Part shown: piece by piece, positions 2,864-31,326 of the stretch
Position numbering within the stretch: position 1 is the stretch's first letter
Layout: each line of letters opens with the position of its first letter
Virus record (IMG/VR): IMGVR_UViG_3300035188_000416
Span: 1-41,638 of that record
Direction: 5' to 3' (one strand)
DNA length: 41,638 nucleotides
DNA from: a virus
Notes under the pieces: model-generated
Seen by the model: only the letters and a program-made list of their open reading frames with translations
Told to the model about the DNA's origin: nothing
Databases searched by the model: none
Translations under genes and position numbers: made by a program

Positions 2864-6876
<4,013 letters not shown>

Positions 6877-6880
6877 TTAA

Positions 6881-6888
6881 TACTTATA
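6881..6888 (-). promoter_or_regulatory. Weak late-promoter-like element TATAAGTA
   Basis: TATAAGTA differs in one base from the T4 late consensus and lies seven bases before the ATG at 6873, which has no Shine-Dalgarno. It overlaps the stop codon of the upstream gene. It may drive an almost leaderless fibre message; support is positional only. Confidence 0.35.
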
Positions 6889-8119
6889 TGATTTCGAACC
6901 ATGAAAGATCTGTATAACCTTCTGTGCCATTTTCCGTAGGAACCAGTACAAGAACAAATGTATCGCTTACTCCCAGTTGAGTTCTTCCTAATTGAAAATT
7001 GAAATCATTTACGCTAGATACATCCAAGGTTCCGCTGCTACTTATATATCCACCGATAATATCAGTTCCACCAGTAACTCCCGTAGCCGTAATATTATAT
7101 TGAACATTTCCATTGAAATGTGTTGCCCACGTGTTTCCCGTTAAAGTTGGATTTAATAAAATTCTATATTGCACTACTAATGGTTTGTTATTTGTTCCCG
7201 GCTCTATTGCCACACTAATATTTGACGGTACAATAATACTATCCAATCTATCGGGGGCCAATCGTATTGCAACCAGTGGATATTGAGTTCCTGCTGTTGT
7301 TAAAGTATGGGGTGTAGTTCCACTGTGGGTTACGTTGTATCTTCTGCTGAATCCTTCATAACCAGCTTCAGATAATATTGTTGAACATATTTGTCTTAAT
7401 GTACTGCTTCCGGTTTGTCCTGTTGTATTTTCAATTTCATATCTCAAAGGCAAACATGCAGTTGTCATATAGGTTGTGGAATTTTTATTCGTATTGTAGA
7501 ATGTATGTGCTACAATGGGTTTTCCGTCTATAAAAAATCCAGTTCGAACATCACCCACACCCAACCATTCGACATCCATCCAAAAAATATTTCCTTTTGT
7601 TACATCTAAAGTTACACCAGAAGGACCAGATCCATTGAATGGATCTCCATTCCAGTTTGATTGTGGTACTGTTTGTGTTGTATTTAAAGAAGCCGAAGCC
7701 AAGCAAAGAGATAGAGTAAGACCATCTTGTTGTAAATATACTCCATTATAAGGTGTTGCTCCAGTAAAACCACCAGTAACTCCGAAGTAACCAACTCTTT
7801 GTCTCAAACCATTTTTTGGTTGAGACATTGCAAATGTGTTTATTATTGTAAGAGACTTTCCTGGCTGATAAGGAAATACTTTTTTGGTTTCGGAGTAAAT
7901 TTTAGACCCTACTGTCAAGCCTGAAGTTAATGACACAGTGCTTTCTGTTATATTATGGGAATATGTTCCGCCAGTTGCACCTCTGTAATCCCATTTGTCA
8001 CTTACTTGGTATCTTTGTTGACTGTCAAATAGCGTAAATGGATTAGAAACTTTAAGCCGATTGAATGCATCAACCGCTGTCCCTTTAAATCCTACAAGAT
8101 CGTTGTATAAGTATGACAT
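6884..8119 (-). CDS. Virion structural protein (411 aa)
   Basis: A 411-residue protein whose N-terminus contains GTAVDAFNRLKVSNPFTLFD followed by a Q-x-R-Y segment. This is a signature I associate with virion proteins common in marine T4-like phages. The remainder is beta-rich with many Gly and Thr and no catalytic motif, including a WMDVEWLGVGDVRTGFFIDG stretch that resembles a lectin-like sandwich. The start codon follows the upstream stop by one base, with GGAG about 11 bases before it. It lies between two collagen-like fibre genes, so a fibre-associated or baseplate role is likely. The exact position in the virion cannot be told. Confidence 0.8.
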   Translation of the reverse strand: MSYLYNDLVGFKGTAVDAFNRLKVSNPFTLFDSQQRYQVSDKWDYRGATGGTYSHNITESTVSLTSGLTVGSKIYSETKKVFPYQPGKSLTIINTFAMSQPKNGLRQRVGYFGVTGGFTGATPYNGVYLQQDGLTLSLCLASASLNTTQTVPQSNWNGDPFNGSGPSGVTLDVTKGNIFWMDVEWLGVGDVRTGFFIDGKPIVAHTFYNTNKNSTTYMTTACLPLRYEIENTTGQTGSSTLRQICSTILSEAGYEGFSRRYNVTHSGTTPHTLTTAGTQYPLVAIRLAPDRLDSIIVPSNISVAIEPGTNNKPLVVQYRILLNPTLTGNTWATHFNGNVQYNITATGVTGGTDIIGGYISSSGTLDVSSVNDFNFQLGRTQLGVSDTFVLVLVPTENGTEGYTDLSWFEII

Positions 8120-8120
8120 T

Positions 8121-10112
8121 TTATATTATTCTCCATCCATTTCTGTAAATGAAATTTAATCCAGCGTTGTCCAAGTTTATTATTGCTGAATTTTGATTGT
8201 CTATCTTGTGTGTTGTTGTGGCACCAATAATTGTTATTTGACGGCTTACTCCAGCCCCAGCATTTCCAGATTCATCTTTTACCACAATTTGTCTTCCTGT
8301 TTCTGGATTGCTCGGAAGAGTTATGGTCACTGGTCCTGCGTAACTTACTCCAATGTAATAATCAATTGGAAGGGCCGAGTAAGTTCCACCGGAAATAAAT
8401 GTTGTCGTTAGAATTGAGGTTCCACCCCCAGTAGTGGTCGCAGTGTTGGTTGGTTGAACCCATTGATTGCTGTTTCCATCGTTTATGTAAACATACTCAA
8501 TCCCAGTGTCAGAATCCATCCACCTGTCGCCTTGGGTTATTCCGGATGGTGATGCAGACTGATAATAAAATCTATTTGCTGCTGAAGATTGTGTTGAGCC
8601 ATCAGCAAATGCTATGAAAGCACCACCCGTAGTTCCTATTACCAATCCTTTTGGAATTTCAAGGTTTTGAGTTGTTGTGTCTAGTTTAAAATTTGCTTGT
8701 GCAGCCAATCTTGATGTACTTGAATCCCTATATTGAACTGCACCACCAATAGATTTTGGTAAATCGGTAACTTCAATTTTTAAAACACCAATGCCACTAG
8801 AAGGCTCTATTGTTAGACTTCCATTCGGAGATGCAATAGATTGAACATAATTACCTACTGGTCCTGTTGGACCTTGGGCACCAGTGGCACCTTGAGGACC
8901 AGTAGGACCAATGGGACCTTGAATACCCGGAGGACCTTGTTCCCCTGTTGGGCCTGTAGGTCCTGAGCCAGATAAACCAGCACCACCGCTAATCTGTACT
9001 TCTACATTTTTACCTTTTCGAATTACATTTACACCAGCACCAGTAAAATTAATATCATTCACAGATTTTAGAATCTGTGCTTTATTAAACTGTATTCCAA
9101 CTGCACCACCACCAAGAGATCCACTGCTTAAATCAAAGGTTCCAGTCCCCTTCAGTGTTCCTAATTTCTCTATTAGTTTTTCAAACTTCTTTGAATCAAA
9201 TGATAAGTGTTTTTCTTTTTCGTCATAAACTAATGGATAGGAAACACTGATGATTCCTGATTCGCCAGGATCACCTTTATCCCCCTTGTCTCCTTTATCA
9301 CCTTTTGGTCCCTGAGAACCATCCTTACCATCTCTTCCATCTTTCCCCTTTAGTCCTTGTCTTCCAATAGGACCTCTTTCGCCAACATCACCTTTAGGAC
9401 CAACTAATCCTTGCTGTCCATCCTTACCATCACGACCGGCCGCGCCAGCGGGGCCAGGTTTGCCTTCAGGTCCTGGTTCCCCGCGTTCACCTTTTGGTCC
9501 TTGAGGACCAGGCATACCATCTTTACCATCTAAACCGGGAGTTCCTTGTTCTCCCTTTTCACCTTGTTCACCGCGTTCTCCTTGTATTCCTTGATCGCCC
9601 TTATCTCCCTTTTCACCTTTTTCACCTTGGGGCCCTATCTCTCCCTGATCGCCCTTATCTCCCTTTTCTCCTTTGTCTCCTTTTGATCCTTGATAACCAA
9701 CAGGACCCATAGGACCACGATCACCTTGCAACCCGCGAGGACCCTGAGAACCCTCTTCAACAATTTTTTGTTGTATTACTTTGTTTACAACAATATATTC
9801 TTTTGTTGGCTCTTCTGTAATTTGTTCTCTATATGGATCAAATAGTTCTTGTATCTCTCGTACAGAACCTTCTAAAGTAACTGTTCCCTTTGGTGTGTCT
9901 ATTGTTACTTTAGATAATCCCCTACCAAACAACCAAACCTTTTCTGATTCTGTTTGCTCAGATATACTTACAATTGCTCCCTTCTCAAGACCAATTGCTT
10001 CTTTTACTAATACAAATTTATCACCGGGCGTGTGATTACCAACAACAATCTTGGAGGAACCAATAACTGGCTCTCCTTCATTATTGTCAAAGTAATCAGA
10101 GAAGGTTTTCAT
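8121..10112 (-). CDS. Collagen-like Lys-rich fibre protein (663 aa)
   Basis: A 663-residue protein. Residues 1-120 are a globular, charged N-terminal domain, possibly the virion anchor. Residues of about 123-285 are classic Gly-X-Y (GDKGEKGDKGDQG type), rich in Lys, Glu, Asp and Pro. A beta linker, a second short GPTG block near 390-420, and a GDRWMDSDTGIEYVYINDG domain near 535 follow. The protein ends with a common phage-fibre tip pattern (VTITLPSNPETGRQIVVKD to the final NGWRII). The ATG overlaps the stop of a 41-residue gene (ATGA). Lys in the Y position is the collagen hydroxylation/glycosylation site in animals; no hydroxylase gene is seen here. Confidence 0.87.
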   Translation of the reverse strand: MKTFSDYFDNNEGEPVIGSSKIVVGNHTPGDKFVLVKEAIGLEKGAIVSISEQTESEKVWLFGRGLSKVTIDTPKGTVTLEGSVREIQELFDPYREQITEEPTKEYIVVNKVIQQKIVEEGSQGPRGLQGDRGPMGPVGYQGSKGDKGEKGDKGDQGEIGPQGEKGEKGDKGDQGIQGERGEQGEKGEQGTPGLDGKDGMPGPQGPKGERGEPGPEGKPGPAGAAGRDGKDGQQGLVGPKGDVGERGPIGRQGLKGKDGRDGKDGSQGPKGDKGDKGDKGDPGESGIISVSYPLVYDEKEKHLSFDSKKFEKLIEKLGTLKGTGTFDLSSGSLGGGAVGIQFNKAQILKSVNDINFTGAGVNVIRKGKNVEVQISGGAGLSGSGPTGPTGEQGPPGIQGPIGPTGPQGATGAQGPTGPVGNYVQSIASPNGSLTIEPSSGIGVLKIEVTDLPKSIGGAVQYRDSSTSRLAAQANFKLDTTTQNLEIPKGLVIGTTGGAFIAFADGSTQSSAANRFYYQSASPSGITQGDRWMDSDTGIEYVYINDGNSNQWVQPTNTATTTGGGTSILTTTFISGGTYSALPIDYYIGVSYAGPVTITLPSNPETGRQIVVKDESGNAGAGVSRQITIIGATTTHKIDNQNSAIINLDNAGLNFIYRNGWRII

Positions 10113-27540: not shown

Positions 27541-27867
27541 TCAATAACTATTTACCCATTGCTCAGTATCGCCGTCTGGCAAATACTTGTAAATTCTTCC
27601 ATTGGTTGTATTGAACCATTCATCGCCCACATTTGGAGTGAGTGGAGTTTCTGCTCCCCAATAAAACTGAATAGTAGAAGAACCACTAGTAAGCATTTGC
27701 CAACCACTTGAATCTCCATGAGCCGGAGATTGATCCTTTATTGGTTTAGTGGCAACATATGTTTGCCCAGAGTAAAAAACAACATCACCCAGCGAGTATT
27801 GAATTAGAACACCATCTGGCGTATGTGATTTATAATTTCCCTTGAAATTTAATTTATCGATATTCAT
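27541..27867 (-). CDS. Small carbohydrate-binding/fibre-like protein
   Basis: A 108-residue protein with two recognisable pieces. Residues of about 22-58 (YSLGDVVFYSGQTYVATKPI, then GDSSGWQML) resemble the chitin-binding type 3/CBM5-12 pattern. Residues of about 68-108 (NVGDEWFNTTNGRIYKYLPD, then a W-V-N-S-Y end) match the GDxWxNxxTG module in the fibres at 5302-6873 and 8121-10112. The start overlaps the upstream stop (ATGA). It sits among replication genes, far from the fibre cluster. A virion-surface role is inferred. Confidence 0.72.
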   Translation of the reverse strand: MNIDKLNFKGNYKSHTPDGVLIQYSLGDVVFYSGQTYVATKPIKDQSPAHGDSSGWQMLTSGSSTIQFYWGAETPLTPNVGDEWFNTTNGRIYKYLPDGDTEQWVNSY

Positions 27868-28988
27868 TTGATTGATCGAAGCAAAAGAGTGTTCGCATTA
27901 ATTCGACCATTTGGCTCTGCTTCTTTTGTGTTTATAGATTTCCAATGATTATTTATTGCACGAATACCATCTTTTTTCATGCACTTAATAAATTCTGCTG
28001 CCTTCTTGATCTTCTTTTCTTTTGAAGTGGTTTTGTCAAACCCGATTAGTGTTGTCCCCTTTACAGTAATTCCACTTCCAGATGTATCAGCGTAATAAAT
28101 TGCTCCCTTTTCTGTCTTTGTATTGAAAACAATAAGGGTAGAAGACCCAACAATACTTTCTGGCAAAATAGACTCTGCTCCGGTCTTTGTATCTTTGATC
28201 AAATACTTCAATTTCTTGACAACTTGATCTGGCTTCTTTTTCTTTTTCTTTCTTGGCTTTCTGTTGCTATTGATAATACCAATATGAAGTCTTAAATAAT
28301 CACAAAGCATTTTGTGGAAATCATAAAGTTTTCTTAATTGGGCTTTAGTGATATAACTATACGCCTCTCTTAATTCTTTATTTTCTCCCAAAAGAGCCAT
28401 GTTTAATTCCTGAACTCTTGGTTCAAAACTCTCTAACATGAAATGACAATGCATACCACTTGGCTCCGCTGACCTTAACCACTCTTCCATTTCAAACTTT
28501 TTATAGTTTGATTTATTGCCAATGATATATTGCAAATAGTCATCAATTTGTTCTTCTAATTCGGAAGCCAATACACAAGACTGTGCTTTGACTCTATCTC
28601 TAACTGAAATTGTTTCTTCTTGTGGTTCAGAGAAAGAAACTTTCTTACCCATTTCAATTAGTTGCAAAATAGTATCATCGACATTTTTCTGAAACATTGG
28701 TGGCAAAATACATCCCTTTGTAGATGCTTTGCACTTACCTCCAATTGAACGAAATGCAAAGACATCTGTTCCGAGTTTTTTCATGTATTGCCAATCTTGG
28801 ATCTTATTCTTTTCCGCATATTCCAATACAGCATTTCGATAGTCTCTTTCGGTGTATCGAATGTTGTACCAGTTAGCAGACATGGCAATTGACCATGCTA
28901 CCTTCTCTATATCCTTGAAATCATCAGGTGTCCAATGTTTCCAAGTGGGTTCTTTACCGTAAAAGATGTCTTCTGTGTTTTGTTTCAT
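27864..28988 (-). CDS. Unknown 374-aa protein of the PLP/methyltransferase cassette
   Basis: A 374-residue protein. The N-terminal half is aromatic and helical (KEPTWKHWTPDDFKDIEKVA, then SANWYNIRYTERDYRNAVLE) with two Cys around KCKASTKGC. A very basic patch (RKPRKKKKKKP) follows near residue 245. The C-terminal half is beta-rich (SSTLIVFNTKTEKGAIYYAD), ending GRINANTLLLRSIK. The layout suggests a nucleic-acid-binding or scaffold protein with a separate beta domain. ATGA overlaps on both sides tie it to the methyltransferase-like gene and the small fibre-like gene. I do not recognise a family. Confidence 0.78.
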   Translation of the reverse strand: MKQNTEDIFYGKEPTWKHWTPDDFKDIEKVAWSIAMSANWYNIRYTERDYRNAVLEYAEKNKIQDWQYMKKLGTDVFAFRSIGGKCKASTKGCILPPMFQKNVDDTILQLIEMGKKVSFSEPQEETISVRDRVKAQSCVLASELEEQIDDYLQYIIGNKSNYKKFEMEEWLRSAEPSGMHCHFMLESFEPRVQELNMALLGENKELREAYSYITKAQLRKLYDFHKMLCDYLRLHIGIINSNRKPRKKKKKKPDQVVKKLKYLIKDTKTGAESILPESIVGSSTLIVFNTKTEKGAIYYADTSGSGITVKGTTLIGFDKTTSKEKKIKKAAEFIKCMKKDGIRAINNHWKSINTKEAEPNGRINANTLLLRSIK

Positions 28989-30568
28989 GGCTTGTAGAAT
29001 ACGAATATCGGTTCATATTTTAGATAAGTCCCGTCAACTTTGCAATAGTTTTTACACTTGGGCACACCATTTTCATCTAGACGATTTTGGCCAGGCATAG
29101 ACTCTAGAGCCATTTTTAAGACACATTGAAATTTCATGCCTAGGTTTTCTAATATATCTCTGGAATCTTTTTCCAAAGGTAGATATTCTCCACCAATCAA
29201 CAGATCGGCAATATTCCAAAGAAGATATCGATCATTTTTTAAATACTCTACACAGGTTTCCAACGTAGGTTTCAAGAAACCATCGCGCCAAGAATCATAT
29301 GTACTGAATTTTTTATATGATTGTTCTGGATCATCCGAATATGCCTCTCTATTAAAGTATGGCGGAGAAGTAAAGATCAAATCTATTTTGCCTTTATACT
29401 TTTGAAAATTTGGATTGTCCTTTATAACTTCAGACCCTTCACAGAAAACTTCATATGTGTTGGTGTGACTAAAGAATGGATTATTTCGGTAAGTCTTTTC
29501 GTTAAAAAAGTCAGCAAGTAGGCTATACCTAGAATTGGTAGCAAAGTGATTATCGGTATTAGGATCAGTACCAATGTAGTGTACAACACGATCATCTCGC
29601 ACAGACATGGCGCCCAATATTCTGCCACCCCATCCGCTTGATGGGTCGTAAATGTTAATTGGTTTGTCTTTTGAAATGTGTTCAGTGTATCTCTCATAAA
29701 GATATTTTGCAGTTAATGGCGGAAAGTTAACAGCAACTTGAATATAACCAATCCTGAAAGAAGCAAATCCGGCAGGAAATACTTTTTCGTTTTTCTTATA
29801 AATTCTGATTGAATAAACTTTATCATCTTTTAAATTCTCTGAGTCAAAGGTGGAATAGTGCCTATATGACATTTTTGGTTTCCACTTTATAAACTGATCT
29901 TTTGTTATTTGTAATATATCACTTTGTTGGATCTGAAAATATCCGGTGTTTAAACCCTCACGGATAGATACCTCTTCCAACATAAAATCGTATCCTTCGA
30001 ATATGTTAGGATTGCTAAAGAATGCTTCTAACCATTCTTCTCCGCTGCTCACATCAACAATTGCATATTTGGTGCTGTTTTTTATGGCAGATAAAGCGTG
30101 TCTGTAAAAAGAATCTCTTCTTAGGTGTCTGGTTGCTCCCCGAACAACTCTATCGTGAAATTTATCATCTGAGAATAAATCATATACGGAATGACCGTTA
30201 TCTTTTTCTGTATAATTAATTCTGGTTTTCATCATGTTAGAAAACCATTGATCTGCTTCTCCACCAATTCTTGCCTTATTGATGATCACATCATCCCCTG
30301 TTCCATCAGTCACTAGTTCATCACTATGCGTAAATTGAGAAACAGGATATGTGGTCATCTTGTTGAATTGATCTATGATATCAGATTCATTTTTCCCAGT
30401 GCGTGGAGGACAGCCATAGGTATCCCATGAGTGTAAAATTTCTTTACGCATATCTTTTACCCAATCACCAAACTCTGTTGGTGTCATGGAAAGAAGATCT
30501 TCAAAGAATACATTTATCTTTGAATTGATCACATAATCATTTCGCTCGTAAAATCCGTAGTTGTTCAT
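28985..30568 (-). CDS. DNA methyltransferase-like protein with large N-terminal domain
   Basis: A 527-residue protein. The C-terminal half has a SAM-binding motif (INIYDPSSGWGGRILGAMS, 305-322) and the amino-methyltransferase motif IFTSPPYFNREAY (398-410), the S-P-P-Y form of N4-cytosine/N6-adenine enzymes. NFPPLTAKYLYERY (281-294) precedes motif I. About 230 N-terminal residues are unassigned and may be a recognition or second catalytic domain. The start at 30568 is in ATGA overlap with the PLP enzyme; an in-frame TTG 15 bases earlier is rejected. It may methylate or otherwise modify bases. The target is unknown. Confidence 0.82.
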   Translation of the reverse strand: MNNYGFYERNDYVINSKINVFFEDLLSMTPTEFGDWVKDMRKEILHSWDTYGCPPRTGKNESDIIDQFNKMTTYPVSQFTHSDELVTDGTGDDVIINKARIGGEADQWFSNMMKTRINYTEKDNGHSVYDLFSDDKFHDRVVRGATRHLRRDSFYRHALSAIKNSTKYAIVDVSSGEEWLEAFFSNPNIFEGYDFMLEEVSIREGLNTGYFQIQQSDILQITKDQFIKWKPKMSYRHYSTFDSENLKDDKVYSIRIYKKNEKVFPAGFASFRIGYIQVAVNFPPLTAKYLYERYTEHISKDKPINIYDPSSGWGGRILGAMSVRDDRVVHYIGTDPNTDNHFATNSRYSLLADFFNEKTYRNNPFFSHTNTYEVFCEGSEVIKDNPNFQKYKGKIDLIFTSPPYFNREAYSDDPEQSYKKFSTYDSWRDGFLKPTLETCVEYLKNDRYLLWNIADLLIGGEYLPLEKDSRDILENLGMKFQCVLKMALESMPGQNRLDENGVPKCKNYCKVDGTYLKYEPIFVFYKP

Positions 30569-31326
30569 GCGCCTACATTCCAAAATAGAGAAATACCTTT
30601 TGCGTGTTGTTTAATAAATTCCCATGCCTTTGCATCGTATGTTGGTGCAGAAGGAAACGGAGGAAGCACCTTTGCTGGTTTATTGAATGGAATTTTGCAT
30701 TCATAAATTTTTGCTCTACCGTAGTCCCCTTTATGTCCTACCATGACAACATTAAATCTAGTGGATGGCCAAGCCAACTGAAGTCCGCGTGTTAGTGTTC
30801 CGCTAGATCCAACAGACCATACTTCGTCTGGAATCATACCGATATTGTATCTTGCAACCTTGATAATGCAAGCCAAAACATCAGGATGATCTCCACCAAT
30901 CGGGATCAACACACGGTTGATTGGATCTTCTTTGACATAATCTTTGGCTCTTTTCTCGGTAACACTCAACATTCCATTTGGAACCCAACGCATATCAGCA
31001 CCAGATGCAATTGCTTCCTGTTGGTATGGATGAAGTTTATTCATGTCTCGTTGAGCCATAAAGATTACTGCTTTTTTCCCATGTCTTGCTGCTGCCTTTG
31101 CAAAACTAATTTGTGCATAACCAGTAGCAGGAGAACTACCATAGACAAACTCTTTATATGGCCATGTTTGTATCATATGATCAATAAACCGCATTTTAGA
31201 ACCACCACCAAGAAGATCATCACGAACAACATGTATACCTTCTTCTACGGTAATAATAGGTCTAGGATTAGGATCTTCCCATCCTTCAACCATAGACAAA
31301 TAATCTTCAGCAGTTGCTAAAATCAT
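30565..31326 (-). CDS. PLP-dependent enzyme, fold type II (ACC deaminase/cysteine desulfhydrase-like)
   Basis: A 253-residue protein with the features of fold type II PLP enzymes. The likely PLP lysine is K44 in GGGSKMRFID, GSSPATGYAQ (63-72) is the substrate/cofactor loop, and VGSSGTLTRGL (172-182) is the phosphate-binding glycine loop. It is shorter than ACC deaminase or D-cysteine desulfhydrase (about 330). It is tied to gp46 by ATGA overlap and to the methyltransferase-like gene by another. PLP enzymes act in some known phage base hypermodifications, so it may alter an amino-acid-derived group. The reaction is unknown. Confidence 0.83.
   Translation of the reverse strand: MILATAEDYLSMVEGWEDPNPRPIITVEEGIHVVRDDLLGGGSKMRFIDHMIQTWPYKEFVYGSSPATGYAQISFAKAAARHGKKAVIFMAQRDMNKLHPYQQEAIASGADMRWVPNGMLSVTEKRAKDYVKEDPINRVLIPIGGDHPDVLACIIKVARYNIGMIPDEVWSVGSSGTLTRGLQLAWPSTRFNVVMVGHKGDYGRAKIYECKIPFNKPAKVLPPFPSAPTYDAKAWEFIKQHAKGISLFWNVGA

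Follow-up and report, generated by a model that had tools for sequence, protein, structure and literature searches.

Why should a gene for a pyridoxal 5'-phosphate (PLP) enzyme stand directly in front of a gene for a methyltransferase (MTase)-fold protein in the replication region of a T4-like phage? The question is raised by the virus record IMGVR_UViG_3300035188_000416 from IMG/VR, which was analysed over its whole length of 41.6 kb and is referred to here as the window. On its minus strand the genes run in the order gp47, gp46, PLP protein (253 amino acids, aa), MTase (527 aa), a 374-aa protein, a 108-aa protein, RNase H, a small open reading frame, gp45 and gp44. This agrees with an initial reading made from the letters without database searches (the sequence-only reading), which had placed the PLP and MTase genes between gp46 and the replication genes. 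Our results suggest that phages with a PLP enzyme beside or fused into such an MTase decorate their DNA with a modified base. That both genes form a DNA-base hypermodification module, in which the MTase acts first and the PLP enzyme second, on DNA, is the reading that we prefer, and we give it a little less than even credence. Its observed basis consists of the pairing and fusion of the genes, the conservation of residues for PLP binding, the fold prediction and a pattern of swapped neighbours.

The pairing was seen already in an initial scan, in which the PLP gene was followed by the MTase gene in 26 of 27 loci, the exception (L031) having no MTase in its stretch. In a clade at approximately 65% identity, from which the 374-aa gene is gone, both genes are retained and are better conserved (PLP 65%, MTase 62%) than gp45, gp46 and gp47 (42-55%). 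A profile scan recovered at least 571 relatives; alignment profiles were used for the contig scans because PF00291 was too insensitive and missed contigs with a known PLP gene. The MTase was present in all 22 of the PLP-positive contigs longer than 40 kb, and the six PLP-positive contigs that lack it are fragments measuring 7-20 kb. Of 87 non-redundant PLP loci flanked on either side by 1.5 kb or more, 82 have the MTase within 1.5 kb of the PLP gene (within 60 bp in 71 of these, the other 11 being farther away); in one of the five exceptions, L057, it is found 6 kb away, beyond an inserted gene. The evolutionary distances of the PLP protein track those of the MTase, with a partial r of 0.585 after removing gp46 and gp44, whereas the values were 0.02 for gp46 and 0.03 for gp44, even though gp46 is the other gene adjacent to PLP. 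The co-occurrence of both genes in related phages, which had been named beforehand as a test, is thus near-obligate from the PLP side, fusions included. The idea of a plasmid-borne system was rejected, as PLSDB held no match.

Several loci depart from this layout. The inserted gene of L057 (6710-12747) is a Cys-rich open frame of 2012 aa that separates PLP from the distant MTase. In L041, a 20-kb contig without MTase, the PLP gene is relocated between gp47 and gp46 (5974-6765). A glutamine synthetase gene begins at the PLP stop in L055 (6751-7454), at the usual MTase position, and an aspartate/ornithine carbamoyltransferase gene lies immediately behind PLP in L098 (6756-7739). Genes for proteins of approximately 350 aa that weakly resemble a phage beta-glucosyltransferase family separate PLP from MTase in L090, L106 and L203 (2959-4017) and follow PLP in L031 (2459-3451). 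One contig has a PLP frame broken into 80 + 162 aa (L029:7974-8726 and L083:5974-6726), which may be decay or an assembly error.

The association extends beyond the T4-like phages. A second MTase family, which has a SCPPY motif and a preceding or fused ParB domain, is encoded directly upstream of PLP in Microcystis phage Mae-JY30 and in Rhizobium and Rhodobacteraceae prophages. Among the ParB-type loci in IMG/VR, the MTase was near PLP in 79 of 80, mostly directly upstream, which is the reverse of the gene order in the window. In the cultured phages Erythrobacter R6L and ZS04 and Pseudanabaena Pam4, PLP and the ParB-type MTase form a single protein. The PLP domain interrupts the MTase at one shared position, which lies between motif III (WHTGDS) and the helix that follows motif II, even though the domain of Pam4 has diverged strongly (22% identical to that of the window). 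The ZS04 and Pam4 fusion proteins exceed the Pfam cut-offs for both PALP and N6_N4_Mtase; in the paper on R6L, the fusion appears under the sole label 'DNA modification methylase' (PMC5463345). In Mycobacterium phage Vincenzo, the gene of the ParB-MTase gp1 overlaps that of gp2, which carries the annotation 'carboxylate deaminase' and exceeds the PALP cut-off. A search with gp2 returned 335 phage records, mostly from Salmonella, Vibrio, Klebsiella, Escherichia and Dickeya phages. In Staphylococcus phage Alsa_1 the PLP gene lies between an MTase related to that of the window and SbcD/exonuclease genes, and Alsa_2, which is 96-99% identical on both flanks, is without the PLP-containing segment of approximately 1.8 kb; the MTases of the two phages are 97.6% identical.

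The label of a fold type II PLP enzyme, given in the sequence-only reading, has weak support when the window protein is taken by itself and firm support from the family. The window protein matches PALP at an E-value of 0.0035 and 17.2 bits, below the Pfam cut-off of 35. Matches were obtained for 34 of 46 family members (best E-value 5e-14), and the relatives in ZS04 (40.1 bits), Pam4 (35.5), Alsa_1 (43.5) and Vincenzo (40.6) exceed the cut-off. An AlphaFold2 model of the window protein (mean predicted local distance difference test score 93.3) was closest to the 1-aminocyclopropane-1-carboxylate (ACC) deaminase homologue 1j0a (Z 23.2, 246 residues, 2.8 A), with which D-cysteine desulfhydrase (Z 22.9) and threonine deaminase (Z 22.5) were tied. 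The predicted Schiff-base lysine, K44 in GGGSK, aligns by hhalign with K51 of ACC deaminase and is kept in 103 of 103 non-redundant relatives; S175 and G176, of the phosphate-binding loop, are kept in 105 of 105, and G42, R46 and R180 are likewise invariant in more than 100. The YDAK motif is replaced by YEAK or YEGK in divergent relatives, the pattern Y-D/E-A/G-K being retained even where members have diverged strongly; counts of YDAK and VVRDD among the non-redundant relatives are biased, since both motifs served as search patterns. A profile of the MTase-linked PLP proteins reached an Ackermannviridae PLP protein (Shigella phage Ag3 orf00226) at 67.7 bits, with decoys at 6.8 or below.

The MTase is well described by the SPPY methyltransferase of 527 residues that had been proposed: TSPPY is present and N6_N4_Mtase is matched at 29.2 bits against a cut-off of 26.7, in the C-terminal half only. 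An alternative TTG start at 30583, upstream of the ATG, would give 532 aa. In its C-terminal half the protein is a class I amino-MTase, in which the motifs DPSSGWGGR and TSPPY are found; the nearest solved folds are Trm11/TrmN (Z approximately 15), and several of the nearest viral models are annotated as N4-cytosine MTases. The N-terminal 280 aa or so are conserved, and no convincing relatives of this half were found in the PDB by sequence, the VIA-align rows covering mainly the MTase domain. Common amino-MTases have Thr at the ninth position of motif I, whereas Arg is found there in both families, the window-type and the ParB-coupled one. Matches of the window MTase in PADLOC were confined to Type II MTase models, and there were none for the PLP or the 374-aa protein. 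In L103, two tandem MTase paralogues (6761-8359 and 8296-9933) follow a single PLP gene, and L105 has only one.

Seen from the MTase side, the association is looser. PLP was absent from 11 of 21 MTase contigs, some of them longer than 160 kb, and representative MTases of such PLP-negative phages are nested inside the PLP-positive tree. The active-site motifs are the same in both groups, and the idea that the MTase was retuned in PLP-positive phages was rejected, as no alignment column separates them (six PLP-negative sequences after redundancy removal). The gene slot upstream of the MTase is occupied in most cases. In 53 of 73 non-redundant MTase loci it holds PLP, 11 of these also having an Asp_Arg_Hydrox gene, and the remaining 20 loci have Asp_Arg_Hydrox (7), Asp_Arg_Hydrox and GNAT (4), GNAT (3) or none of them (6). 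GNAT and PLP occurred together in none of 20 GNAT loci. The hydroxylase, PLP and MTase genes follow each other with overlaps in L233, and in L240 the hydroxylase gene overlaps the MTase gene directly. Overall, approximately 40 loci have this 2-oxoglutarate-Fe(II) enzyme (PF05118) upstream of the MTase, whether PLP is present or not.

In the mechanism that we propose, the MTase-fold enzyme would recognise DNA and move a substituent derived from S-adenosylmethionine (SAM) onto an exocyclic amine, its TSPPY motif favouring N4 of cytosine or N6 of adenine as the target. Because the families of all MTase-associated enzymes have amino acids or amines as their substrates, the likeliest substituent would carry an amine and a carboxylate, such as the 3-amino-3-carboxypropyl group of SAM, rather than being a plain methyl. 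The ACC-deaminase-like PLP enzyme would then form a Schiff base with the amine of the substituent and convert it on the DNA by elimination, deamination or decarboxylation. In general terms, swappable tailoring enzymes, here PLP, may finish the substituent that the MTase lays down, and the benefit could be escape from host restriction and other DNA-targeting defences. An action of PLP after the MTase is favoured since the active-site motifs of the MTase are unchanged between PLP-positive and PLP-negative phages. The substrate, the product and DNA as the target of both enzymes are what we infer here. An experimental precedent is CmoX, an MTase-fold phage enzyme that installs a SAM-derived handle for later tailoring (PMC12783734). 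A more specific form of the proposal, in which an amino-acid substituent (3-amino-3-carboxypropyl or alanyl) on the exocyclic amine of cytosine or adenine is followed by interchangeable tailoring of the PLP, GNAT or Asp/Asn-hydroxylase type, is conceivable but doubtful.

Some observations weigh against the proposed module. A plain methylated base would offer PLP nothing to react with. The counterparts of S78 and N79 of ACC deaminase are not kept in the PLP family, and the reaction therefore cannot be read from the sequence; the protein was rejected as an ACC deaminase proper, even though K51, Y294 and the acid at 295 are matched. The link to the Ackermannviridae protein is distant (approximately 30% identity over part of the protein). 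Moreover, the gp46-gp45 interval also takes up unrelated genes (peptide deformylase, ClpP-like, glycosyltransferase-like), so the exchange of neighbours may in part be due to a hot spot for insertions.

The same insertions would fit PLP and MTase being independent passengers of a variable region, but pairings and fusions recur in several unrelated phage groups, with opposite gene orders and shared evolutionary distances, which makes coincidence hardly credible. A structural role is easier to imagine, with the PLP-fold protein as a subunit that would give an ordinary N4-cytosine/N6-adenine MTase its specificity, stability or activation and whose own catalysis would be dispensable. The fusions inside the MTase and a dependence that is obligate one way only are in line with it, as is the shortening of the PLP family by approximately 70-80 aa relative to ACC deaminase; CysK, a fold-II PLP enzyme, activates a toxin through binding (PMC5562914). 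We nevertheless consider this role unlikely because the catalytic residues (G42, K44, R46, S175, G176 and R180) are invariant; Y-D/E-A/G-K persists in highly diverged members, and the insertion would lie, judging from the topology, on the face opposite the MTase active site. Next in rank, and also unlikely, is that PLP supplies the donor, making from SAM, or from an amino acid in free form, a special compound whose group the MTase transfers, as CmoA and CmoX do (PMC12783734). The Arg of motif I, where common amino-MTases have Thr, would agree with a special donor, but it is found with or without PLP. A supply of this kind is disfavoured because the MTase motifs are unchanged; the PLP-negative MTases are nested in the PLP-positive tree with no column dividing the groups, and CmoA, the carboxy-SAM (Cx-SAM) synthase, was above the cut-off in none of 23 contigs (these are fragments, and the absence is not absolute).

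Two further explanations concern the PLP reaction itself. It might alanylate the base directly, making aminoacrylate from serine, O-phosphoserine or cysteine and adding it to the base, with the MTase separate or used for targeting. Fold-II PLP enzymes such as SbnA carry out beta-replacements (PMC12414870), and the nucleobase amino acid willardiine is made by uracilylalanine synthase, its PLP-catalysed formation from serine derivatives having been reported (PMC9611319). ParB-type systems also have a ParB/Srx domain, and SbnI, which shares this fold, supplies SbnA by acting as a kinase on free serine (PMC12704722, PMC12414870). However, the ParB partner is absent at the T4-like locus, the ParB domain accompanies PLP-less MTases too (phiFL3A), and the need of PLP for this particular MTase is left unexplained, which renders the explanation improbable. 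Ranked after it, and improbable as well, is a metabolic helper that clears amino acids, derived from S-adenosylhomocysteine or otherwise, or that supplies nitrogen or carbon to sustain ordinary methylation. The nearest folds are indeed ammonia lyases and desulfhydrases, and metabolic genes stand beside PLP at some loci (glutamine synthetase in L055, carbamoyltransferase in L098), but a general metabolic gene needs no place beside or inside an MTase in unrelated phages.

The proposed module is confined to the PLP and MTase genes, although the sequence-only reading had included the 374-aa and 108-aa proteins as well. Its chain of four genes joined by ATGA overlaps from the gp46 stop onwards was borne out, two of the overlaps being read directly and the MTase/374-aa and 374-aa/108-aa junctions being 4-bp overlaps according to their coordinates. 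Both proteins were rejected as module members since they are not co-conserved as a unit: the 374-aa gene is missing from L022-L029 and L032, all of which retain PLP and MTase, and in L041 it lies directly after gp46 with no MTase. The poly-basic patch reported for the 374-aa protein is RKPRKKKKKK. As for the 108-aa protein, called sugar-binding-like, a CBM_5_12 match was indeed found, but it is sub-threshold (E-value 0.006); the protein, which is encoded in a replication operon, also matches a tail-fibre family weakly. The positions of the features are given in Table 1.

Table 1. Positions of the features in the window and, where a locus is named, in the compared loci.
Feature	Position	Strand	Remark
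Fold-type-II PLP protein gene, 253 aa	30565..31326	-	shortened ACC deaminase/D-cysteine desulfhydrase-like
MTase-fold protein gene, 527 aa	28985..30568	-	ATG at 30568
374-aa protein gene (phrog_11903)	27864..28988	-	translationally coupled neighbour; not a module member
108-aa protein gene	27541..27867	-	neighbour only; not a module member
ATGA overlap, gp46 stop/PLP start	31323..31326	-	read directly in the sequence
ATGA overlap, PLP stop/MTase start	30565..30568	-	read directly in the sequence
K44 codon, predicted Schiff-base lysine (GGGSK)	31195..31197	-	hhalign to K51 of ACC deaminase
YDAK motif, residues 230-233	30628..30639	-	profile alignment to Y294-E295-G-K of ACC deaminase
SAM-binding motif I, DPSSGWGGR	29621..29647	-	ninth position Arg
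Catalytic motif IV, TSPPYFN	29351..29371	-	in MTase C-terminal half
Asp_Arg_Hydrox genes (examples)	L240:2892-4004, L233:2192-3286, L262:1472-2602, L227:2803-3411		often with an N-terminal extension of ~200 aa
GNAT acetyltransferase genes directly upstream of MTase	L227:3408-3872, L217:3567-4004, L250:3561-4004, 17 more		PLP-less loci only

If the proposed module is real, at least several hundred environmental phages would possess a DNA base that is new to description and is built by MTase and PLP enzyme together; in the more specific and doubtful form of the proposal, a class of amino-acid DNA bases would exist independently of hydroxymethylpyrimidines. PLP tailoring of the ViI-like kind would then reach beyond 5-hydroxymethyldeoxyuridine (hmdU), and new enzymes for DNA labelling would become available. 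The pair or the fusion is present in cultured phages (Microcystis Mae-JY30, Erythrobacter R6L and ZS04, Pseudanabaena Pam4 and Mycobacterium Vincenzo), and Staphylococcus Alsa_1 and Alsa_2 offer a natural comparison with and without PLP.

Phage DNA hypermodification and PLP tailoring are both already known kinds. In the literature searched, no description was found of a PLP enzyme that is linked to an amino-MTase where genes for hydroxymethylpyrimidines are lacking; a key 2013 paper was outside this coverage, and an earlier prediction is possible. With ACC deaminase and D-cysteine desulfhydrase (PALP, PF00291) the phage PLP family shares the whole-chain fold (approximately 245 residues aligned), the Schiff-base lysine in GG-x-K-x-R, the phosphate loop and the Y-D/E-A/G-K motif. 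It differs from them in its shorter chain, in the signature G-(M/Y)-L-x-V-x-x-x-RA(K/R)-(D/E)-Y and in being tied to a DNA MTase, and the window protein itself is under the PALP cut-off. The orphan N4-cytosine/N6-adenine MTases of phages also have the TSPPY/SCPPY motif and the N6_N4_Mtase domain, but in the MTases described here motif I ends in GWGGR or GGSVR, and the window-type ones have the extra conserved N-terminal half. According to a survey (PMC12704722), fusions of ParB and N6_N4_Mtase are enriched in phages, and the MTase partners in Microcystis, Rhizobium, Rhodobacteraceae, Erythrobacter, Pam4 and Vincenzo belong to that type; in contrast to what was found here, the survey's main text mentions no PLP domain or neighbour.

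In the thymidine pathway of ViI-like phages (Ackermannviridae), PLP enzymes act at a late step, on a DNA-tethered amino acid. The analogy with this tailoring, drawn in the sequence-only reading, is supported with respect to the enzyme, as the PLP protein of Ag3 belongs to the same subfamily by profile and the GSK, SGYNS and YEGK motifs are common to both. It is not supported for the thymidine route, which starts from hmdU; a thymidylate-synthase-family gene (base hydroxymethylase) was found in none of 19 long contigs (fragments, so that the absence is not absolute), compared with nine of 14 control genomes, and a route through hydroxymethylcytosine or hmdU was rejected on this ground. Furthermore, Ag3 orf00226 has 418 aa and no annotated MTase beside it within a 5.5-kb stretch. 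The ViI DNA contains 5-(2-aminoethoxy)methyldeoxyuridine (PMC6449724). The other relevant system is CmoA-CmoX-CmoY of Synechococcus phage S-B43, which produces 5-carboxymethylcytosine (PMC12783734). A route of this type was also rejected because CmoA was not above the cut-off and the partner is a TSPPY amino-MTase; CmoX is a C5-cytosine MTase that depends on CmoA and works with no PLP enzyme. Since neither CmoA nor thymidylate-synthase genes were found in these fragmentary contigs, neither the known SAM-handle route nor the hydroxymethyl route applies as such. What the CmoX system shares with the module proposed here is its logic, in which a DNA-MTase homologue adds a handle taken from SAM, to be extended by other enzymes (PMC12783734).

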